The translations under genes were made by a program, and so were the position numbers. Under the pieces are notes generated by a model. It ran no database searches, was not told where the DNA came from, and saw nothing but the letters and a program-made list of their open reading frames with translations. 13,161 nt of DNA. It comes from Propionibacteriaceae bacterium (lineage in GTDB: Bacteria; Actinomycetota; Actinomycetes; Propionibacteriales; Propionibacteriaceae). The stretch spans positions 1 through 13,161 of the forward strand of contig JAIRRM010000056.1 in assembly GCA_031255975.1 (NCBI GenBank). Reading direction: 5' to 3'. Position 1 is the stretch's first letter. The number at the start of each line of letters is the position of its first letter. Positions 1 through 12,485 of this stretch are shown here, piece by piece.

Positions 1-267
1 ACCGCCAAGCTTACGCAGGCGTTCATCTCTCATTTCGGCGCGGCGGCGGTGGAGGATCTGGGCCAGTTGGCCGGCTCGGAGGATTTCGGTCAGATTCCGG
101 ATGCTTTCGGCACTCCGTACGTGTACTGGGGCCTAGGCGGTTTTGAAGACCCGGCCACGGCACCTGCCAACCACTCCGCGCTGTTCGCGCCGGTGATCCA
201 TCCCACGCTGGAAGTGGGAACCAGGGCTTACTTGGTGGCGGCGTTGACGCAACTGGGCACGTCCTGA
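1..267 (+). CDS. M20-family amidohydrolase, C-terminal part (partial)
   Basis: The frame is open from the first base and ends at TGA 265-267, giving 88 residues of the C-terminus of a zinc-type amidohydrolase of the peptidase M20 family (hippurate or N-acyl-amino-acid amidohydrolase type). These enzymes cleave the acyl group from N-acyl amino acids or related amides in the cytoplasm. The segment shows the late family motifs: an AGSEDFG block whose glutamate/aspartate region lies near the metal site, then TPYVYWGLGG, then NHSALFAP with the histidine that binds metal in this family, then the terminal HPTLEVG helix. The N-terminal catalytic half lies outside the window, so substrate cannot be judged. 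The ATG at 49 is internal to this frame and is not taken as a start. It is followed by thrS on the same strand after a leader of about 90 bases. Confidence 0.85.
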   Translation, partial: TAKLTQAFISHFGAAAVEDLGQLAGSEDFGQIPDAFGTPYVYWGLGGFEDPATAPANHSALFAPVIHPTLEVGTRAYLVAALTQLGTS

Positions 268-358: not shown

Positions 359-2311
359 ATGTCCGAAGAAGTCACGGGGCTGACGCGCTATGGCGACGAT
401 CAGTCGATAGTGGCCATGAAGCTGAACGGCGTGGCCGTCGATTTGGCGTACGTCATCACAGACACCGATCAGGTTGAGCCGATCACCGCCGCCAGCCCCG
501 AGGGGTTGGCGATTATTCGGCACTCCTGCGCCCATGTCACCGCACAGGCGTTGCAGGCGGTGTTCAGCGACGCAAAACTGGGTATCGGCCCACCCATCAC
601 TGACGGTTTCTACTACGACTTCCGCTGCCAACCGCTCACCCCGGACGATCTGAAGACCATCGAGAAGGGGATGCAACGTATCGTCAAGGAACGCCAGCGC
701 TTCGTACGCCGCGTCTCCACCGAAGCCGAGGCTTGCGCGCAAGAGGTGAACGAGCCCTACAAGTTGGAACTCATCTCCATCAAAGGCAACCCCAGCGAAA
801 CCGATGGGGCCTCTGTAGAGGTGGGAGGTAGCGAACTGACCTTCTACGACAATGTGCGCCGCGACGGCACCGTGGCCTGGTCGGACCTCTGTCGTGGCCC
901 GCATGTGCCGCACACCGGTTATCTGAAGGCGTTCGCGCTCACCAAGACTTCAGCCGCCTACTGGAGGGGCGACCAGGCCAACGATGCTTTGCAGCGCGTT
1001 TACGGCACCGCCTGGGCCACCCGCGAAGATCTGGCAGAGTATCAGGCTCGCATGGAGGAAGCCGCGAAACGCGACCACCGCAAACTTGGAGCTGAACTTG
1101 ACCTGTTCAGTTTTCCGGAGGAGTTGGGGCCGGGCCTGCCGCTCATCCACCCCAAAGGTGGCGTCATCAAGCGGCAGATGGAAGATTACGTCCGCCAGGC
1201 GCATATTGATGCGGGATTCCTGTATGTAGGTACGCCACACATCTCCAAAGAAGGGCTGTTCTACACCTCAGGGCATCTGCCGTACTACGCCGAGATGATG
1301 TTTCCGGCGATGGATGACGATGGACAAAACTACCGCCTCAAGGCGATGAATTGCCCGATGCACAACCTCATTTTCAAGTCGCGTGGACGCAGTTACCGCG
1401 AATTGCCGCTGCGTTTTTTCGAGTTCGGCGCGGTGTATCGTAACGAGAAATCCGGCGTGCTCCAGGGCCTCACCAGGGTACGCATGATAACCCAGGATGA
1501 CTCACACAGCTATGTGATGGCTAATCAGGCAGCCGATGAGGTGCGACACCTACTGGGCTTCATCCTGAAGCTGCTGCGCGATTTCGGTCTAAATGACTAC
1601 TACCTGGAACTGTCCACCCGCGACGACGGCAAGAAGAAGGACAAGTTCATCGGTTCGGATGCCGACTGGGCAAGCGCTACCGCCGTACTGGAACAGGTGG
1701 CGCAAGAAACCGGGCTGCGGTTGGTGCCCGATCCGGGCGGTGCCGCGTACTACGGCCCCAAGATCAGCGTGCAGGCAAAAGACGCCATCGGACGCACCTG
1801 GCAGATGAGCACCATCCAGTACGACTTCAACCAACCGGAGCGGTTCCAGTTGGAGTACACCGCCCCCGATGGCTCCCACGAGCGTCCGGTGATGATCCAT
1901 TCCGCCAAGTTCGGTTCCATTGAGCGGTTCTTGGGGGTGCTCACCGAGCATTACGCCGGGGCATTCCCGGCTTGGCTAGCTCCGGTGCAGGCGGTTGGCA
2001 TTCCGGTGGCGGACGAGTTCAACACGTATCTCGAAGAGATCATAGAGCAACTCAAAGCCGAGGGGATTCGCGCCGAAGTGGACGATTCCGACGACCGGAT
2101 GCAGAAGAAGATCCGCACCGCCACCAAACAGAAGGTGCCGTTCATGCTCATCGCCGGTGAACAGGATCGCAGCGTCGGCACAGTGAGTTTCCGCTTCCGC
2201 GACGGCTCACAGCTGAACGGAGTGCCGGTGGCAGACGCCATCCGGCGGATCACGACGACGGTGCGCACCCGTGACAACGCCGATCCGACGGCGGGTTTAC
2301 CCGAGACGTAG
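359..2311 (+). CDS. thrS: Threonyl-tRNA synthetase (ThrRS)
   Basis: This class II synthetase charges tRNA-Thr in the cytoplasm. With ATG 359 it has 650 residues, usual for the family. That start has AGGAAGG at 345-351 seven bases upstream, whereas an in-frame ATG at 287 would put both leader hairpins inside the coding region. Domains in order: a short TGS-like domain (about 16-46), the editing domain with HSCAH (H54, H58) and SDLCRGPH (C178, H182), then the catalytic core with MNCPMHN (C332, matching the zinc cysteine of E. coli ThrRS), YRNEKSG motif 2, DSHSY (H383, second zinc ligand), a GSIERFLG motif 3, and an anticodon-binding domain from about residue 540. All editing and zinc residues that I can check are intact. 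It heads the thrS-HIT-patA-pimA block known from Mycobacterium. Confidence 0.97.
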
Positions 2312-2324
2312 TAGCGTGGGTGAT

Positions 2325-2876
2325 ATGCCGAGTACCTGCACTGCGGAGCCAGCCGAGAGGTTTGCCCGGGTGCCTGATGCCTTCCAGCGGTTGTGGACGC
2401 CGTACCGCATGGCATACATCAAAGGCGATTCGCGGCCTGCGAGCGAGGAGCAGTCGGAGTGCCCGTTCTGCCGGGCACCGCGCGATGACGACGCCACCGC
2501 TCTGGTGGTGCATCGTGGCGAACTGGCCTACGTGGTGATGAATCTGTTCCCGTACTCGCCGGGACATCTGTTGGTATGCCCGTACCGCCATGTGGCTCGC
2601 TATATCGACTTGACGGACGCCGAAGCGGGTGAGTTCACAAAGCTGACGCAGGCCGCGGTGCGTACATTGGAGTCGGTGTCTCATCCGGATGGTTTCAACC
2701 TGGGCATAAACCAGGGGGCGGTCGCCGGAGCCGGTATCGCGGCGCACCTGCATCAACACATCGTGCCGCGTTGGGCGGGAGACACCAATTTCTTGCCCAT
2801 CATCGCGGAAACCAAGGCGCTGCCACAGCTATTGGAAGACGCCAGGCAGGCCCTGGCCGGGAACTGGGTGGGGTGA
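2325..2876 (+). CDS. HIT-family protein, probable Ap4A phosphorylase/hydrolase
   Basis: A 183-residue histidine-triad protein. HLHQHIV (H141, H143, H145) is the canonical HIT motif that carries the nucleophilic histidine. ECPFC (C46, C49) with H89 looks like the zinc site found in the longer actinobacterial members. The mycobacterial homologue in the same position (Rv2613c) is described as a diadenosine tetraphosphate phosphorylase, so nucleotide-stress turnover is the likely role. I chose ATG 2325, 13 bases after the thrS stop, because the longer frame from 2271 would overlap thrS by 41 bases and its extra residues look random. There is no strong Shine-Dalgarno sequence; TAGCGT at 2312-2317 lies where a -10 box for a leaderless internal transcript would be. 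The next gene starts three bases after the stop, implying coupling. Confidence 0.9.
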   Translation: MPSTCTAEPAERFARVPDAFQRLWTPYRMAYIKGDSRPASEEQSECPFCRAPRDDDATALVVHRGELAYVVMNLFPYSPGHLLVCPYRHVARYIDLTDAEAGEFTKLTQAAVRTLESVSHPDGFNLGINQGAVAGAGIAAHLHQHIVPRWAGDTNFLPIIAETKALPQLLEDARQALAGNWVG

Positions 2877-2879
2877 CGT

Positions 2880-3860
2880 ATGACCGATCAAAATGAAACC
2901 ACGCGGCCAGCGACCGGCACGAGTGACATCGTGAAAGCCGATAGATTCGCCAAACAGAAGCGTGGCTACGGCCTCTCGCCACGGGCGTACGTATACGGCC
3001 TCAAAATAGCGGCGCATATTCCGAACTGGTTGTGGCGTCCGCTGGCCCGGTTCGCCTCTTGGGTGGGCTATAAGAAGCAGTACAAGGCCGTCAGGCAGTG
3101 GGCTCTGAACGCCGAGGTGATGTTGGGACGACCTCCCACCGAAACCGAGGTGAAGGCTGGGCTGCTCTCCTGGTTCAAGAACATGATCGGTTCGGTGCAA
3201 CTCGGTAAATACACCGCGGCGCAGAACCTGAAACGGGTCAGCGTGGAACAGAGCGGCTACGAGGTGTTCCGCAAAGCCTGGGAAGAAGGCAGGGTGATCG
3301 TCACCTTGCCGCACATGGGCGATTGGGATCTTGCCGGTGCCTGGGTGTGCGCGAAAGGCATCCCGGTGTCTGCAGTGGTGGAGCGGCTCCCCGATGAGGA
3401 GTTCGCCTACTACTCGAAGATCAGGCACTCCGTCGGTATGACGATCTATCCGCACAAAGACCCTCATGCCTTCGAGAAGCTGCGCAACGATCTGGAGAAC
3501 GGTTCCGTGGTGGCGCTGGTGGCTGATCGTGACCTGTCACGGCGCGGTGTGCCGGTGAATTGGAACACCCCATCTGGGGCCCGTGAGGTGACCATGCCGC
3601 CCGGCCCGGCGCTGTTGGCGCGGCAGAGCGGGGCGGCGATTTTTGTGGCGATCAGCACCTTCGTCGGCTACCAGATGCACCTTGAGTTTATCGGCCCGAT
3701 TGAGGTGGACACCGGCCCCGACGGGCTACAAACCACCTGCCAACGTATCGCCGATGTCTTCTGCGAGCACGTCGCCAAGAATCCAATCGACTGGCATCTG
3801 ATGCAGCGATTCTTCCCCGGGGTGGTGGCGGAACCGCGCCCCGCCAAGTCGACCAGATAG
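2880..3860 (+). CDS. Phosphatidylinositol mannoside acyltransferase (PatA-like, LPLAT family)
   Basis: A 326-residue member of the lysophospholipid/lipid A acyltransferase family. PHMGDWD at 144-150 contains the HxxxxD catalytic pair (H145, D150), and a VALVADRD segment followed by a glycine/proline-rich PPGPALLA block matches the later family motifs. Position immediately before a PimA-like gene, as in Mycobacterium (Rv2611c-pimA), supports the PatA role: transfer of an acyl chain to the mannose of phosphatidylinositol mannosides at the inner face of the membrane. The N-terminus is about 19 residues longer before the catalytic histidine than the mycobacterial protein (H126 there). ATG 2880 lies three bases after the HIT stop and follows a GGGTGGGG stretch. 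The pgsA gene normally found just upstream is missing. Confidence 0.85.
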   Translation: MTDQNETTRPATGTSDIVKADRFAKQKRGYGLSPRAYVYGLKIAAHIPNWLWRPLARFASWVGYKKQYKAVRQWALNAEVMLGRPPTETEVKAGLLSWFKNMIGSVQLGKYTAAQNLKRVSVEQSGYEVFRKAWEEGRVIVTLPHMGDWDLAGAWVCAKGIPVSAVVERLPDEEFAYYSKIRHSVGMTIYPHKDPHAFEKLRNDLENGSVVALVADRDLSRRGVPVNWNTPSGAREVTMPPGPALLARQSGAAIFVAISTFVGYQMHLEFIGPIEVDTGPDGLQTTCQRIADVFCEHVAKNPIDWHLMQRFFPGVVAEPRPAKSTR

Positions 3861-3869
3861 GGCCGGGGC

Positions 3870-4955
3870 GTGCGTGTCGGCGTCGTCTGCCCGTATTCTT
3901 TCGCGGTACCCGGTGGAGTGCAGACGCATGTGTTGGGTTTCGCGTCCTGGCTCAGAGAGCAGGGGCACAGCGCACATATCTTGGCTCCGGAGGCGCGGGG
4001 GCACCCGAACGCGATGAGCGCCGGACGGGCGCATGGGTTCCGCTACAACGGTTCGGTGGCCCGGGTGGCGGTAGGGCCACAGGCGGTGTGCTCGGTTACG
4101 GTGTGGTTGCGATTGGGCCGTTTCGACGTGGTGCATGTGCATGAACCGTTGGTGCCACTGTTGGGGTTGGCCACGCTGCTGGCGGCGTGCGGCGAGCGGA
4201 AGTCACCACTGGTGGCGACGTTTCACGCCCAGGGCGATGATCCGGCCTGGTTGAGACGAGTGCTGCGAGGATTGCCGTTGCGGCACCGTATCGCGGCCAG
4301 CATTGCGGTCTCACCGTACGCGGCGGAGCTGGCCAACCGGCGCATCGGGGTGGTGCCCCGCATCATCGGGAACGGAATCGCGCTGCCAGCGACAGGAGAA
4401 GGTGCCGCTCAAATGGGGAGCACCACCGGCGAACCTGGCGAACCTGTGGTGGCCTTTGTTGGGCGTTTCGACGAGCCGCGTAAAGGTTTTTCAACGCTGT
4501 TACAAGCCTGGCCCTCGGTGCGCGCGGCGATACCTAAGGCCCGACTGTTGGTCGCAGGCCCTGGCACCCCGATTGACGTGTCTGGAGTGGAATACCTGGG
4601 TGTGCTTGATGGCCCGGAGCGCGATCGGCTGTTGACTCGCGCCACCGTGCTGGCGGCCCCCAACACTGGGCAAGAGAGCTTTGGGCTGGTGCTCGTAGAG
4701 GCGTTAGCCTGCGCCACCGCGGTGGTGGCCAGCGACTTGGCGGAGTTCCGCGTTACCCTGAGCGATACCCAGGGAACCGCAGCCACTTTGGTACCTCCCG
4801 GTGATGCGACGGCGTGGGCGGATGCCGTGGTGGCCGCACTGCGCCAGCCGCCTGACGCCGCTCGGGGGAGGAGGATCGCGACGCGCTACTCCTGGGATGC
4901 CATCGGGCCTCAACTACTGGACGTATACCATCGGGTCGCCTCCGCCAGCGATTGA
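3870..4955 (+). CDS. pimA: GT4-family phosphatidylinositol mannosyltransferase (PimA-like)
   Basis: A 361-residue GT-B retaining glycosyltransferase that probably transfers mannose from GDP-mannose to phosphatidylinositol on the cytoplasmic side of the membrane. Motifs: PGGVQTH (14-20) for phosphate/donor contact, ATFHA with H119 (H118 in mycobacterial PimA), GRFDEPRKG with R199 and K205 (R196 and K202 there), and ESFGLVLVE with E269 and E277 (the EX7E motif). The start is GTG 3870, nine bases after the PatA-like stop, with GGCCGGGG upstream. Gene order with the acyltransferase favours PimA over other GT4 enzymes. The C-terminal end is slightly shorter than the 378 to 386 residues usual in mycobacteria. 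It is the last gene of the forward block; only 51 bases separate it from the FHA gene. Confidence 0.88.
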   Translation: MRVGVVCPYSFAVPGGVQTHVLGFASWLREQGHSAHILAPEARGHPNAMSAGRAHGFRYNGSVARVAVGPQAVCSVTVWLRLGRFDVVHVHEPLVPLLGLATLLAACGERKSPLVATFHAQGDDPAWLRRVLRGLPLRHRIAASIAVSPYAAELANRRIGVVPRIIGNGIALPATGEGAAQMGSTTGEPGEPVVAFVGRFDEPRKGFSTLLQAWPSVRAAIPKARLLVAGPGTPIDVSGVEYLGVLDGPERDRLLTRATVLAAPNTGQESFGLVLVEALACATAVVASDLAEFRVTLSDTQGTAATLVPPGDATAWADAVVAALRQPPDAARGRRIATRYSWDAIGPQLLDVYHRVASASD

Positions 4956-4994
4956 CACGAGGCTGTGTTCCCCGCCGTAATGGCTTATGACCGA

Positions 4995-5000
4995 TAGACT
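4995..5000 (+). promoter_or_regulatory. Probable -10 box giving a leaderless FHA-gene transcript
   Basis: TAGACT is a typical actinobacterial -10 hexamer. Six bases separate it from ATG 5007, so transcription would start at or next to the A of the start codon. No Shine-Dalgarno sequence precedes the ATG, which agrees with a leaderless mRNA. No good -35 was found 17 bases upstream. Confidence 0.45.
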
Positions 5001-5006
5001 GGCCAC

Positions 5007-5504
5007 ATGATCGAGTGTGGCAACTGCGGTTTCCTCAGTACGCCAGGTAGCAACTTCTGCTCTCGCTGCGGAGCCAAGCTGGGCACCACACCCAGCGCTG
5101 ACATCACCAATTCCATCCCATCTTACGAAGAAGAGATCATCATCGGTGATGTGACCGACGAGGAAGCGAACGACATCGCGGCGCTCGCGGAAGGCAAGGC
5201 GTTGCTGATCGTTACCCGTGGGGGTGCCGACCGCGAACGGGTGCTGCTTGATAAACCCATCACCCAGGTAGGGCGGGCCCCCGAATCCGACATCTTCCTT
5301 GACGACATCACCGTGTCGCGGCATCACGCCGATTTCCTCATCGACGAGGACGGCGGCGTCGGCATCGTCGATCAGGGTTCCATGAACGGCACGTATGTGG
5401 ATAAGGCGTTGATCGACGGCACCCAGGTACTGCGCCCCGGCGATGAGGTACAGATCGGTAAATTCCGGATGCTGGTGTTCTTCACCGAACGCGAGGCCGT
5501 CTGA
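5007..5504 (+). CDS. garA: Zinc-ribbon FHA-domain protein (GarA/OdhI-like)
   Basis: A 165-residue soluble regulator. The N-terminus holds a CGNC...CSRC zinc ribbon (C4, C7, C18, C21). The C-terminal FHA domain (about 65-160) has the phosphothreonine-binding signature: GR at 89-90, SRHH at 104-107 and NG at 127-128. GarA and OdhI bind 2-oxoglutarate dehydrogenase, glutamate dehydrogenase and related enzymes and are controlled by Ser/Thr kinases PknB and PknG. Genomic context (FHA gene followed by an FtsR-type MerR gene) is the same as Rv1827-Rv1828. Two features are unlike mycobacterial GarA: the zinc ribbon, and the absence of the ETTS phosphorylation motif. The acidic linker around 32-50 has T34, S36 and S39 but no exact ETTS. 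The function is therefore probable by synteny, and kinase control uncertain. The stop overlaps the next start. Confidence 0.8.
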   Translation: MIECGNCGFLSTPGSNFCSRCGAKLGTTPSADITNSIPSYEEEIIIGDVTDEEANDIAALAEGKALLIVTRGGADRERVLLDKPITQVGRAPESDIFLDDITVSRHHADFLIDEDGGVGIVDQGSMNGTYVDKALIDGTQVLRPGDEVQIGKFRMLVFFTEREAV

Positions 5505-8468: not shown

Positions 8469-9005
8469 GTGCGGGTGAAATGGCTTACCATAGCGGTTTT
8501 CGCCGCGGTGTTGTCGCTGAGTGGGTGTTCAGGCGAAGTAGTTGAGCCGCAACAGTCATTTTCCAGCGCGCAGGAGCGGCTGTATCAGGATGCGTTCGAG
8601 GTTTACTCGCAGTTCTTCGAGTTGGATTACGCGCTGGAACAGCTAGGTGGGGCAGAGACCCTGCCAGATGAGATCAAGCAGTACGTGATGGGCCCGGAGC
8701 TGGAAAGCATCACCCAGGCGTTGTACAACGGATGGCAGCTTGGGTTGCACTACACGGGCGAAAACAGCGATGTTATCGATAGCTGGCAACGTATCTCCGA
8801 CCCGGAACAGGGGAGCGGGGCATTCCTGCGTATTGCGGTCTGTCGCCACCATGAGTCAACAGATCTGTTGGACGCCGAAGGCGCGGTGCGGATAGCCGCG
8901 AACACCCGGATCGTGTTGGCGGAGGTGTCATTTGCCCGAGACAGCGACGGGAGCATCAAGGTATACGACGTGGCTACCGAGAAGGTGGAGTCATGTCCCT
9001 TCTGA
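8469..9005 (+). CDS. Putative lipoprotein of unknown function
   Basis: Not recognised as a named family. With GTG 8469 it has 178 residues: a basic VRVKW start, a hydrophobic stretch (about 5-16) and an LSGC lipobox with C20, so it should be lipid-anchored on the outer face of the membrane. GTG 8469 is preferred over the upstream ATG at 8433 because AAAGGAG (8454-8460) sits eight bases before it and because the longer version adds charged residues ahead of the signal peptide. The mature part is acidic, with a predicted helical region (about 30-85) followed by segments rich in beta-type residues that contain a pair of cysteines (one near CRHHE, one in the last residues ESCPF). Its end overlaps the next gene by 13 bases, so the two are probably cotranslated. 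Context suggests a cell-envelope role alongside the secreted protein and pseudopilin downstream. Confidence 0.8.
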   Translation: MRVKWLTIAVFAAVLSLSGCSGEVVEPQQSFSSAQERLYQDAFEVYSQFFELDYALEQLGGAETLPDEIKQYVMGPELESITQALYNGWQLGLHYTGENSDVIDSWQRISDPEQGSGAFLRIAVCRHHESTDLLDAEGAVRIAANTRIVLAEVSFARDSDGSIKVYDVATEKVESCPF

Positions 9006-9778
9006 TCCCGCTACTGCTCGCGGCTTCGCTGTCGTGTTGGCCCGCGCCCGTTGGTTTGTTGCCCAGCGATGGGAATGACGGCTACACGAACACCACCACT
9101 TCCACCAGTGCCGACGGCAACACTGTGGGAGTGACAGTGGAACAGAGCGGCACTACCACATCCGGCGGCTCCGGTGGCTCTGGCGGTTCAACCGGCGTTA
9201 CACCCCTATCGCGTAAATATGCCTGTACCGACTCGCGGTGGCAATCGCTATGTGCTCCGAATCCGCGACCGAACACGCCGCCCCGAAAACCAACTACGGC
9301 GGAGATCGCCAGACAGGCGGCAGCACAACTCACCCTGCCCGCTGTCATTCCGACGGTGCAGCCAAACCCGGCGGATAACGAATGGGACATGCTTGCCGTG
9401 GGGTTTCCGCTCTGGTTGTATGCCCCGGTACCAGCACCGCTGAGCCAAACGCTCACCCAGAGTGGGCTCACACTCACCCTGAGAGCCACCCCAGTGTGGT
9501 TCACCTTCGGGTTGGGCAACGGTGCCACAGTCTCTTGCGCCCGGCCACAAGCCAGGCCGGGCAACTTGGCCGATCCGATGACTCCAGCCCCGGCGTGTGG
9601 TTACGTATACCTTGATCCCGGCGTCTACACCATCTCGCTTGCGCTAACCTGGCGCGTCGACTGGACGGCTGCCGGACTCAGTGGCAGCTTCGAGCACACC
9701 CCACCAGGCACTGTGTCTCCAGAGCCGCTTCCCATTGGCGAGCTACACGCTGTCATCACCACCGCGGGCGATGACTGA
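8993..9778 (+). CDS. Secreted protein linked to a TadE-like gene
   Basis: A 261-residue exported protein. A hydrophobic N-terminus (2-14) ending at C15 could be a cleavable signal peptide; ASLSC is not a good lipobox. A low-complexity Ser/Thr/Gly region follows (31-68, with GGSGGSGGS). The C-terminal half has an AVGFPLWLY segment (135-143), a GLGNGATVSC stretch (173-182), a CGYVYLDPG segment (202-210) and LTWRVDW. This pattern resembles secreted actinobacterial proteins that databases often label ATP/GTP-binding or PKD-like and that I recall near tad genes; that link is from memory and unproven. Cysteines at 78, 87, 182 and 202 could form disulfides outside the cell. GAAGGTGGAG precedes ATG 8993, which lies inside the lipoprotein gene. 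Confidence 0.75.
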   Translation: MSLLIPLLLAASLSCWPAPVGLLPSDGNDGYTNTTTSTSADGNTVGVTVEQSGTTTSGGSGGSGGSTGVTPLSRKYACTDSRWQSLCAPNPRPNTPPRKPTTAEIARQAAAQLTLPAVIPTVQPNPADNEWDMLAVGFPLWLYAPVPAPLSQTLTQSGLTLTLRATPVWFTFGLGNGATVSCARPQARPGNLADPMTPAPACGYVYLDPGVYTISLALTWRVDWTAAGLSGSFEHTPPGTVSPEPLPIGELHAVITTAGDD

Positions 9779-9804
9779 TCGGGCTGGACAGGAGGAAGAT
9801 GCCA

Positions 9805-10221
9805 ATGAAGACGTTGCGGCAAACATGGCTGCATGAACGCGGGGTGAGCATCTCGGTGTTCACCGTGATCGCCGTCGGTGCCTTGTTGATCGCCGGAGGT
9901 CTGGCTATGGATGGGGCCGCTGCGGCGCAGGCGCATCGCCGCGCGGAGGCAGCGGCGGCTCAGGTGGCGCGAGTGGGAGCGGACGCGGGTGCCGCGTTCA
10001 GATTGGCGGGTGCGGATGGTGGCCCAGCGGCGCTCCAGGCGGCTCGCTTGACGGCGGCCAACTATCCCGGGATTGAGTTTGAGATGAGGATGAGTGGGGG
10101 ACAGGTGGCGGTGTACACCACCGCACGGGTGGATACCACTTTCCTACAGTTCATTGGCATCCGTAGCCTCACGGTGAGCGGCTACGCCAGCGCAGCCCTG
10201 ATACCGACACCGCCGGGATGA
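9805..10221 (+). CDS. TadE/TadG-like pilus-type protein
   Basis: A 138-residue protein with the hallmark layout of TadE/TadG-like pseudopilins: a short charged start, ERGVSISVF (11-19), one hydrophobic helix (about 15-38), then an alanine-rich helix with QAHRRAEAAAAQVARVGAD. Such proteins are minor pilins or assembly factors of Tad (Flp) pili, anchored in the membrane by the N-terminal helix. Of two close ATGs, 9805 is preferred because AGGAGG (9790-9795) lies nine bases upstream; for ATG 9799 the gap would be three bases. It follows the secreted protein by 26 bases, likely in one operon. No tadA, tadB, tadC, flp or prepilin peptidase gene is in the window. A hairpin with a two-base bulge (10216-10238) spans the stop codon and may be a weak terminator. 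Confidence 0.82.
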   Translation: MKTLRQTWLHERGVSISVFTVIAVGALLIAGGLAMDGAAAAQAHRRAEAAAAQVARVGADAGAAFRLAGADGGPAALQAARLTAANYPGIEFEMRMSGGQVAVYTTARVDTTFLQFIGIRSLTVSGYASAALIPTPPG

Positions 10222-10275: not shown

Positions 10276-10293
10276 AACTACACCTTTGTAGTT
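10276..10293 (+). promoter_or_regulatory. Perfect dyad upstream of the large-RNA promoter
   Basis: AACTACA 10276-10282 and TGTAGTT 10287-10293 form a 7-bp palindrome around CCTT, ending 12 bases before the -35 box. No T-run follows, so it is a poor terminator. The half-site ACTACA recurs at 10327-10332 across the -10 box, suggesting an operator. Confidence 0.4.
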
Positions 10294-10305
10294 CTCATGA
10301 AATCA

Positions 10306-10334
10306 TTGACAGCCCCGCGCGATGGGACTACAAA
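10306..10334 (+). promoter_or_regulatory. Sigma-70-like promoter of the large RNA
   Basis: TTGACA 10306-10311 (6 of 6 consensus) and TACAAA 10329-10334 (4 of 6) are spaced by exactly 17 bases. The predicted start is A10341, one base before the first RNA hairpin. This is the best-matched promoter in the window. Confidence 0.7.
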
Positions 10335-10340
10335 AGAAGT

Positions 10341-10920
10341 ACGCCCAACCGCAAGGGAGGGCGAGGCTCCAGAGGAAAGCCATCAGGTCGCCGCCACTGC
10401 GGTTCGGGAATGGGCCCAGGTAGGCAGGCTGATCGGTGGTAGCCCGGCGAGCCGAGCCGTCGGAGATGGACGACCCAGGTATGAGGTCCCGAAGGGGAAG
10501 TCAGGACCTGGACACCTCGGAAACGGGGTGGGTCGTAGCATTGAAGACGAACTCTCTGGCGCGAGCCAGGGGATCGCTGCGGGAAACCGGAGCGGAACTC
10601 CGGGAGACCGGGGTGATCGGGATGCGAAAGCAGCCCGGTCAGGTCTACGCAAGTAGGCCGACCTGATCCACGAAAGTGGGTCGACGGCCAGCGGTGGCGT
10701 GGTCGGCGGAATCGCAAGACGCGCCCGCCCGCCACCGAAGGCCAACGGGTCACGGCTTGAGCCTTCATGCCCGCACAGCGCGTCGCAAGACGAGTCGGTG
10801 TGGGACGCGCAGGGGTAAGCGCGCTGGGGGAGCGAACGTGACTTGGCCAGAGCCGGGGCCCACCGGCCAGGCGGCGGGGCCCAGCCGACTCATACTCGGC
10901 TGGGCCCCGCTTTATGCTTT
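10341..10920 (+). ncRNA. Large GNRA-rich structured RNA of unrecognised class
   Basis: No convincing protein is encoded here, but the forward strand folds by eye into a dense series of hairpins. GNRA-capped stems: GCAA loop 351-354 (all offsets add 10000), GAAA 520-523 on a 7-bp stem 513-519/524-530, GCGA 561-564 on 554-560/565-571, GAAA 583-586, GAGA 604-607 on 598-603/608-613, GAAA 626-629 within an 11-bp helix 615-625/630-640, GCAA 649-652, GAAA 672-675 on 665-671/676-682, GCAA 714-717 and GCAA 785-788. ACGACCC 470-476 with GGGTCGT 530-536 closes a multiloop, and GCGGTGGCG-type pairing 692-699/730-737 closes another. The unit starts right after a strong promoter and ends in a strong terminator, giving about 580 bases. 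GNRA polarity fixes the strand. I see no RNase P, tmRNA, SRP, group I/II intron or omega-RNA signature. OLE, GOLLD and ROOL are similar in size and style only. Confidence 0.75.
10874..10920 (+). terminator. Intrinsic terminator of the large RNA
   Basis: Bases 10874-10888 pair perfectly with 10896-10910 (15 bp, core GGGGCCCAGCCGA) around a 7-base loop CTCATAC, followed by TTTATGCTTT. The T-run is interrupted but the stem is very strong. Confidence 0.8.
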
Positions 10921-11111: not shown

Positions 11112-12485
11112 TTACCCCACAAACGGCACCAAGGCGAGCACCACACCACCGGCCATTGCCGAAGCAACCTGACCAGCAGCGTTCGACCCCATGGCGTGCA
11201 TGAGGATGAAGTTGGTGTAATCGGCCTGGGTGGCCTCCTTCTGCACCACGCGGGATGCCATCGGGAAGGCCGAGATGCCAGCCGCGCCAATGAGCGGGTT
11301 GAACTGGCCCTTGTAGAAGATGCGGTACACATGCCCGAACAGCACGCCTACTGCGGTGTCCATCACGAACGCGAACAGACCGAGGCCCATGATCATAGCC
11401 GTCTGGAGGTTGATGAAGTTCTCCCCCAGCATGGTCGAGCCGATGGCCAGGCCCAAGAACAGGGTGACGATGTTGTTCAGTTCGTTCTGTGCCGCACCGG
11501 ACAGACGCTCCACCACGCCGCACTCACGCATCAGGTTGCCGATCATCAACGAGCCGACCAGCGGCAACGCGAATGGTACGAGCAGACCAACGAGAATGGT
11601 GAGCAGCACCGGGAAGATGATGCGCGTGGTGCGCGAAATCTCACGGGAGCTGTACGGCATCTTGATAGCGCGAGCCTTCTTGGAGGCCATGAGCTTCATG
11701 ACCGGCGGCATGATGAGTGGAACGAGCGACATATACGAGTACGCTGCCACCGTGATCGGCCCCAGCATGTGTGGAGCCATCTTGGCAGACACGTAAATCG
11801 ATGTTGGCCCGTCAATAGCACCGATGATGCCGATGGACGCGGCCTCCTGACGGGAGAACCCGAGGACGACGGCGAGCGTCATGGTGATGAAGATACCAGC
11901 CTGGCCGGCGGCACCGAGAAGCACCATCTTCGGGTTTTCCAACAGCGGACCGAAGTCGGTCATGGCACCGATACCGATGAAGATGAGCAGCGGGAACAGC
12001 TCGTTCGCCACACCCATGTCATACAGGCTCGACAACATGCCGTGCTTGTTGGCGTCAGCGAGGACATAGTCGCCGATGGCGCCACAGGTTTCCACGAAGC
12101 CTTCCTTAGCGGCATGGCAATAGCTCGCGAGATTTACCATGGCTTCGGTGATGATTTCCTGGCCCGTCGCGGTAGCGACGGTCACTGTCTCACCGATCAA
12201 CTGATGGGTGATGACATCGAACGTCTGGCCTTTGAAAATCCCATCGGAGATGACGGTCACCGGCCCCTGAATGGCCGGGGTGACCTCGACATACTCGCCC
12301 ATGAAGGACGAAATCGGAAGGTTCGCCCAAATGCAGCCGCTGCCGATCGGTAGGAGCAGCAGGGGTTCGAAATCGTAAACGATTGCGAGCACCAGCAGGA
12401 CGCACCCTATGCCGATCATAATAGCGGCCTGCCAAGTGAAGTTGGTCAAACCAACCAGCAGGTCATTGAGTGTATCTGAGTTCAT
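11112..12485 (-). CDS. Na+-transporting carboxylic acid decarboxylase beta subunit (OadB/GcdB/MmdB family)
   Basis: A 457-residue integral membrane protein. The beta subunit decarboxylates the carboxybiotin carried by its partner and pumps Na+ out. Conserved parts: FEPLLLLPIG (39-48), GAMTDFGPLLENPK (173-186), GAIDGPTSIYVS (222-233) with D225 matching the Na+-site aspartate (D203) of Klebsiella OadB, AAYSYM with Y251, and NPLIGAAGISAFPMASRV (396-412) with N396 and S405. Many hydrophobic helices span the chain. Residues about 60-150 form a long insertion between early helices, larger than in compact GcdB proteins though enteric OadB also has an insert here. ATG 12485 follows the biotin carrier stop by 11 bases, with GAGG just upstream. 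The substrate (oxaloacetate, methylmalonyl-CoA or glutaconyl-CoA) depends on the carboxyltransferase subunit, outside the window; propionibacterial context favours methylmalonyl-CoA or oxaloacetate. Confidence 0.9.
   Translation of the reverse strand: MNSDTLNDLLVGLTNFTWQAAIMIGIGCVLLVLAIVYDFEPLLLLPIGSGCIWANLPISSFMGEYVEVTPAIQGPVTVISDGIFKGQTFDVITHQLIGETVTVATATGQEIITEAMVNLASYCHAAKEGFVETCGAIGDYVLADANKHGMLSSLYDMGVANELFPLLIFIGIGAMTDFGPLLENPKMVLLGAAGQAGIFITMTLAVVLGFSRQEAASIGIIGAIDGPTSIYVSAKMAPHMLGPITVAAYSYMSLVPLIMPPVMKLMASKKARAIKMPYSSREISRTTRIIFPVLLTILVGLLVPFALPLVGSLMIGNLMRECGVVERLSGAAQNELNNIVTLFLGLAIGSTMLGENFINLQTAMIMGLGLFAFVMDTAVGVLFGHVYRIFYKGQFNPLIGAAGISAFPMASRVVQKEATQADYTNFILMHAMGSNAAGQVASAMAGGVVLALVPFVG

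Follow-up and report, generated by a model that had tools for sequence, protein, structure and literature searches.

Large ornate RNAs are among the closest described counterparts of the locus analysed here. In the part of PMC12286853 on which we draw, OLE, ROOL and GOLLD form complexes built by A-minor and kissing contacts, and GOLLD and ROOL, to which that part assigns no known function, are found in phages or prophages, often close to tRNA genes. Stand-alone RNAs are also on record in the Propionibacteriaceae: a transcriptome of Propionibacterium acnes names abundant sRNAs and a 6S RNA, as far as the section used here goes (PMC3848588), and the section used of PMC9130861 records Ms1 in three genera of the family.

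The window, that is the whole stretch of 13,161 nucleotides of Propionibacteriaceae DNA that we analysed (contig JAIRRM010000056.1), holds at 10306–10911 a promoter, a 5′ hairpin, a series of GC-rich helices and a terminator (Table 1). A reading made from the letters alone, here called the sequence-only reading, had taken this region for a self-contained unit encoding a large ornate RNA, similar in size and style to OLE, GOLLD and ROOL and perhaps of an undescribed class or a divergent member of a known one. Rfam gave no match in the window at the gathering score and only chance matches, such as microRNA hairpins, up to E = 5, none of them to a known class. RNAIII-like and RNase P-like readings, set against Rfam alone, likewise found no match there. 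The kinship with OLE, GOLLD or ROOL was thus not borne out: no match to these classes appeared up to the same E value, the window contains 0 tRNAs, and the nine neighbouring proteins scanned around the RNA are ordinary chromosomal ones, with phage genes none among them. The idea of an undescribed class has held, in that neither Rfam nor the open-access literature searched describes this RNA family; papers outside that literature may exist.

Table 1. Features of the predicted RNA gene and its surroundings (window positions unless a locus is named).
Feature	Position	Strand	Evidence or remark
tadG-like gene, small, upstream of the RNA	9799–10221	+	name is our reading
Inverted repeat AACTACA-N4-TGTAGTT, candidate operator just 5′ of the −35	10276–10293	.	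exact in window and G005 (L010:637–654)
−35 hexamer TTGACA	10306–10311	+	sequence; TTGACA also in G005, G001, G002, G003
−10 hexamer TACAAA, spacer 17 nt	10329–10334	+	TAGAAA in G005; TA-type −10 in 41/53 family hairpins
Predicted RNA transcript, about 570 nt (573 start to end by script)	10341–10911	+	fold z −9.0, alignment z −13.4
5′ hairpin, purine internal loop, GCAA loop	10343–10362	+	2/6 pairs exchanged on both sides in G005
Long branched helix, 5′ part	10381–10438	+	17 + 5 common pairs with G005, 3 both-sided changes; within model R1
Helix around most conserved internal segment GGTCCCGAAGGGGAAGTCAGGA (10485–10506)	10475–10511	+	22 nt identical in G005
GTATGAG, exact complement of terminator loop	10479–10485	+	possible internal pairing or partner-hairpin remnant
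Two adjacent GNRA hairpins (10642–10659, 10664–10683)	10642–10683	+	15 common pairs, 2 both-sided changes
Long irregular hairpin, loop GCAA/GAAA (window/G005)	10686–10743	+	19 common pairs; within model R2
GCAA-loop hairpin (10770–10804) and next hairpin (10806–10823)	10770–10823	+	18 common pairs, 4 both-sided changes
Terminator hairpin, 16 bp, 7-nt loop CUCAUAC at 10889–10895	10873–10911	+	terminator scan and model R3
Sodium-transporting decarboxylase beta subunit gene, downstream of the RNA	11112–12485	−	PF03977
Example complementary unit	L099, about 1100–1206		CGTGTCG box, TAGAAAT-like −10, GUAUGAG hairpin

The region is almost certainly a real structured RNA gene, with promoter and structure both kept in a relative. 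That relative is a second species, G005 (record JAIRZI010000039.1, Propionibacteriaceae MAG Gsp477_bin82), the only one among 57 relatives' genomes with matches along the RNA; four more genomes matched via the terminator palindrome alone. Its locus is syntenic, with the tadG-like gene before the RNA and the decarboxylase beta gene after it. The G005 RNA lies at about L010:699–1352, has a length of 652 nt with a long extra stretch in its 5′ part, and is identical to the window at 352 of 547 aligned positions (64%; 126 gap columns; alignment A1). We infer that transcription starts at about 10341 and stops at the terminator. The signals that the sequence-only reading had placed at the two ends were confirmed: the promoter is evident in the sequence, with an identical −35 and spacer length in G005 and a similar promoter in most relatives (see below), the hairpin at the predicted start is in place, and the stem of the terminator varies by compensation. 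An automatic sigma-70 scan returned 0 promoters in the window because its rule demands a T at the last −10 position. No Pfam match was found for the tadG-like protein.

Just upstream of the promoter lies a palindrome at which a putative DNA-binding factor may control the RNA gene in the window species. In the seven genomes of the genus, exact copies number two in the window genome (G000), one in G005 and one in G006, and both extra copies, at C119:2316–2333 in G000 and C161:9874–9891 in G006, fall outside likely genes. With up to two mismatches, 22 sites were found versus 9 for a reversed control pattern, and therefore only the exact copies stand out. The extra copies in G000 and G006 precede a LytR_C-type gene (by Pfam for the G000 copy) and are surrounded by sequences that we read as DnaA-box-like. 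A variant palindrome, GACTACAACCGTGTAGTT, occurs in G004 in a near-identical stretch on two contigs (L075 and L076), and the L076 copy adjoins what we read as an integrase-like reading frame.

Could the region encode a protein instead? In the window, one minus-strand frame runs without a stop and a second is interrupted once. Each of the six frames of the aligned G005 region holds at least five stops, and translated comparison of the two species gave local matches that are weak (best E 5e-7), lie in frames of both strands and include no outstanding one. We therefore rejected a protein reading, in agreement with the original impression that no frame is convincing; no coding pattern appears between window and G005.

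The plus strand of the window RNA folds at −336 kcal/mol versus −265 for shuffles (z −9.0); the minus strand gave z −5.7. Folding energies of the two-sequence alignment, each compared with 100 column shuffles, reached z −13.4 on the plus strand and −5.0 on the minus strand, and −7.7 and −2.3 once the terminator was left out. Of the 150 pairs in the common structure, 91 are the same in both species, 32 differ at one partner and 27 at both; that none is broken is expected, because the structure was optimised on these same two sequences. Outside the terminator there are 22 both-sided changes, where shuffles average 18 and reach up to 28, so that this number is not above shuffles and the folding energy alone is. 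The covariation test that the sequence-only reading had called for, made by comparing pairs, showed compensatory changes between window and G005 as well as among the terminators of the genus. Two multiloop-closing helices had also been proposed; the fold predicts them, but comparison lends them weak support (10365–10369/10449–10453: four pairs the same, one one-sided change).

The most conspicuous feature of the body is its GNRA hairpins. The sequence-only reading had listed ten, and with stems of at least 3 bp we too counted ten on the plus strand, perhaps a different ten, and 0 on the minus strand; 1000 dinucleotide shuffles of the plus strand averaged 1.28 and never exceeded 5. G005 has four such hairpins, a number reached by 86 of 1000 shuffles, and the number of GNRA hairpins is therefore not conserved. 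In the common structure a GNRA loop is kept in both species at five positions (about 10351, 10649, 10672, 10714 and 10785); in the two adjacent hairpins the loops are GCAA/GCAA and GAAA/GCAA (window/G005). One reading of these features is that the body itself is functional and that its GNRA and kissing loops join copies of the RNA into a particle, an RNA-only assembly in the style of OLE, GOLLD or ROOL. The size of the RNA, the excess of GNRA hairpins over expectation and the five positions kept in G005 are in line with it, as are the A-minor and kissing contacts that build the OLE, ROOL and GOLLD complexes in the part of PMC12286853 used here. We nonetheless regard it as quite unlikely: Rfam finds no match, the GNRA number is not kept in G005, the window has no tRNA, the scanned proteins include no phage gene, and the body was found in just two species.

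This distribution was seen with two models of the long body, R1 (10380–10538) and R2 (10674–10822). E values for the window and G005 range from 5.5e-37 to 3.0e-44, and these two species are where the long body turned up among 198 family genomes. Other family matches at E ≤ 0.1, four for R1 and two for R2, score 19–25 bits; from these scores and the alignments of the three inspected (L028, L080 and L078) we took the remaining matches as chance. R2 added one match of the same 19–25 bit class in 396 genomes of the phylum. The long body is thus known from two species. A pattern scan of genome contigs yielded 29 stretches, of which L031 alone, on the same contig as G005, fits R1 and R2. No match to the window RNA was found in 50,697 phage records or in plasmid records, and two short patterns picked out 0 and 3 stretches in viral contigs, none of which fits R1 or R2.

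The RNA gene is present in five of the seven genus genomes (G000, G005, G001, G002 and G003), each time directly 3′ of the tadG-like gene, whose protein finds a match in six of the seven. In G001, G002 and G003 it is shorter, about 190–255 nt; its promoter has TTGACA, the start lies near GTA(C/A)G, the 5′ hairpin bears a GCAA or GAAA loop and the terminator the loop CUCAUAC. This 5′ hairpin resembles that of the window in G002, G003 and, with changes, G001. The −10 of the G002 and G003 RNAs is TTTGAT, and the fold of the short G002 RNA reaches z −5.1. A comparison of the five terminators shows both-sided variation at 8 of 14 pairs and no broken pair, with an invariant CUCAUAC loop. No match to a model of the terminator hairpin (R3) was found in G004 and G006. 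G004 has what we read as a phosphofructokinase-like gene after the tadG-like gene, in place of the RNA; G006 has the downstream decarboxylase gene without the RNA and no match to the tadG-like protein.

How far does the terminator reach beyond the genus? At E ≤ 0.1, R3 matches 97 of the 198 family genomes in 20 of 29 genera, with about 20 genomes expected by chance and five of the matched genomes having supplied the model; at E ≤ 1e-6 it matches 62 of 198 genomes in 10 genera (hand count). We inspected in context 53 terminator hairpins, a selection from the best R3 matches. A script found a TTG-16..19-TA promoter before 41 of them; it missed the promoters of G001–G003 because their −10 has another form. 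From start to end the RNA measures 174–216 nt in 34 of the 53. Longer forms are of 309 nt in one case and 406–420 nt in four (three of genus g34), and the window and G005 RNAs are the longest with a recognised promoter among the 53. The loop reads CUCAUAC in 51 hairpins and CCCAUAC in two, a constancy that is partly selection because R3 contains the loop. In 17 sequences (16 of genus g8, one of g17) whose bodies differ, a run of 27 adjacent terminator positions shows no variation at all. An element near the promoter, CGACACGCC, is frequent in relatives, though not universal, and present in G001–G003; as an exact match it is absent from the window and G005. The window RNA shares with these relatives a TTG-17-TA promoter, the lack of a conserved ORF and the CUCAUAC terminator, and very probably belongs with the CUCAUAC RNAs. 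Other species of the genus thus carry the RNA gene too, and its terminator, as judged by the sequence matches, extends into the family, in most cases on a much shorter RNA. Promoter type and CUCAUAC terminator, the latter above all, are the constant features, joined within the genus by the 5′ hairpin, and the ornate 570-nt body is not defining.

The surroundings of the family loci vary. Ten neighbouring proteins at seven loci, picked by a longest-frame rule, comprise a sugar epimerase, two short-chain dehydrogenases, a nucleotidyltransferase-like protein, an acetyltransferase, a ParA-like ATPase, an ankyrin protein, threonyl-tRNA synthetase, exonuclease VII and one without a match, so that the short-chain dehydrogenase type alone was seen twice. 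That the neighbours differ across genera argues for an RNA acting in trans. Some genomes carry more than one copy within a few kilobases: near-identical RNA genes lie at 2402–2599 (+) and 4400–4597 (−) in G013 (L132), and similar ones at 2170–2382 and 8982–9193 in G195 (L131). In G010 (L129) the RNA, at 2593–2776, stands directly before the threonyl-tRNA synthetase gene (2890–5058) on the same strand. A T-box leader was considered and rejected; the nine other neighbouring proteins are not synthetases, and no Rfam T-box was found in 20 family loci, where the one Rfam match is a tRNA. In genus g25 (L127 and L136), for which no promoter was found, the DNA about 450 bases before the terminator shows a long, GC-rich stretch that by eye seems structured.

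The terminator might instead be a common, perhaps mobile, REP-like hairpin that ends unrelated RNAs, the window RNA then being lineage-specific with a function of its own. Consistent with this, the bodies beyond the genus can scarcely be aligned by eye and stems differ by genus. Among 396 genomes of the phylum, R3 found a match in 19 at E ≤ 0.001, including G000; in the 19 loci inspected (L138–L156) the loop occurs in two alone, both in G306, a genome of another family with three matches (two inspected), whose RNAs of about 80–110 nt have two plain hairpins. Against this, the hairpin lies at a near-constant distance from the same kind of promoter in 34 of 53 cases. The sequence GACACGCC is also enriched near it, with 23 copies in 24 kb versus 13 in 134 kb elsewhere, several of these 13 being near an RNA outside the coverage of that count. 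In the 17 sequences of g8 and g17, moreover, the bodies have a structure in common, in which 18 of 44 pairs show a both-sided change in at least one sequence. We consider the mobile-hairpin account unlikely.

Could the family stand in for 6S or Ms1, as an RNA that binds RNA polymerase where 6S is not recognised? The shape of 6S RNA is one long rod with a central bubble. The predicted folds of the CUCAUAC RNAs run as hairpin, branched domain, hairpin and terminator, with no such single rod, and several copies are present in some genomes, which speaks against this role. The 6S model RF00013 matched nothing in the window and 0 of 198 family genomes versus 4 of 14 control genomes, and the typical length of about 200 nt would suit. 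For Ms1, the part of PMC9130861 used names no more than three of the family's genera. Because the section of PMC3848588 cited names a 6S RNA in P. acnes, possibly missed by the model, absence of 6S here means absence of model matches. A stand-in for 6S or Ms1 appears very unlikely.

What might read the loop? Termination needs no constant loop, and something therefore probably reads it. A bacterial tRNA-Met anticodon loop is CUCAUAA, from which CUCAUAC differs at its last base alone, and the loop, invariant in the genus, is usually closed by A-U. It could accordingly be a mimic of the tRNA-Met(CAU) anticodon loop (7 nt, U33-C-A-U-A37, A-U closing) and act as a decoy for a tRNA enzyme or nuclease. 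We hold this to be highly improbable: that last base differs in every hairpin inspected, two loci have CCCAUAC, and a complementary unit found beside many of the RNAs would go unexplained.

This unit came to light in 24 of the 53 hairpins, where a hairpin with a GUAUGAG loop stands about 290–550 bases before the terminator on the same strand. Several features of the unit emerged: (i) a CGTGTCG box is present in 24 of 24, 50–53 nt before the GUAUGAG loop; and (ii) a −10 of the form TA(G/C)A(A/C)A is present in 18 of 24 and always follows the box at exactly 27 nt, a spacing such as would be expected of a promoter with an activator site replacing the −35. Five of seven further hairpins checked have the box 50–55 nt before GUAUGAG, with the unit divergent from the RNA in four (L118, L123, L126 and L130) and downstream of it in L135; the −10 form of the 24 units is mostly missing in these five, and L129 and L137 have no CGTGTCG box. 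As the box keeps this distance in any orientation, the order is a property of the unit itself. The unit may encode a tiny partner RNA, which at 35–40 nt would be little more than a hairpin. Alternatively, the GUAUGAG hairpin could be the terminator of an opposite transcript; wobble counts slightly favour the GUAUGAG strand, with 5 G-U versus 1 A-C in 13 distinct hairpins. The stems of terminator and GUAUGAG hairpins agree in one telling case (L116) and do not in L104 and L130. The DNA inspected around the two CCCAUAC loci showed no matching GUAUGGG hairpin.

No partner unit was seen beside the window RNA or the G005 RNA, and R3 detected no second hairpin in the G000 or G005 genome, both of which are incomplete assemblies. 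The window RNA contains GTATGAG within its own body instead, which may be the partner sequence taken into the RNA; 32 of 2000 shuffles contain one by chance, and G005 has at this site a partial match with at most five pairable bases.

The constant loop, the exact complement beside many copies and the beginning of the loop point to a kissing pair; this beginning, CUCA, is YUNR-like, which we take to be the form of fast-pairing antisense loops. Tentatively, we favour a trans-acting structured RNA family that would recognise its partners via the terminator loop, with a body enlarged here, a statement that as a whole falls somewhat short of being probable and is drawn from comparison of sequences. 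The loop CUCAUAC would be the recognition element and would kiss, loop to loop, an exposed GUAUGAG on other RNAs, and many relatives appear to encode a tiny dedicated GUAUGAG hairpin RNA next door. The GNRA-rich body, enlarged in the window species and G005, could be a scaffold that stabilises the transcript and holds its loop accessible. A more specific form is a two-RNA system, in which the tiny GUAUGAG RNA, under a boxed promoter of its own (CGTGTCG, 27 nt, −10), would be partner or decoy of a structured RNA that works through its CUCAUAC loop, with the body free to grow and swollen to 570–650 nt here and the partner sequence internalised in the window; this we rate as doubtful, if conceivable.

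If a trans-acting family of this kind exists, about a third of the Propionibacteriaceae genomes searched (62/198, E ≤ 1e-6) carry an RNA family absent from Rfam, and do so in a group of bacteria without any match to the 6S model. An invariant loop on bodies of about 90 to 650 nt also raises the question of what a large ornate body adds to a small regulatory RNA.

The window RNA resembles OLE, GOLLD and ROOL in its several hundred nucleotides, its many hairpins and its lack of a protein. Unlike them, it matches no model, has ordinary chromosomal neighbours and a body found in two species, and is marked by its terminator and promoter; unlike GOLLD and ROOL in particular, it lies in a window with no tRNA and no phage setting. 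With 6S and Ms1 the family shares the stand-alone RNA and, in most relatives inspected, a length of about 200 nt, whereas its predicted architecture differs and Rfam finds no match. It differs from kissing antisense or sibling sRNAs in that the loop sits in the terminator, the body measures 573–652 nt here, and the relation is known here from sequence complementarity; it is like them in its invariant loop, in the complementary hairpin unit near it in many relatives and in its presence in more than one copy in some genomes.
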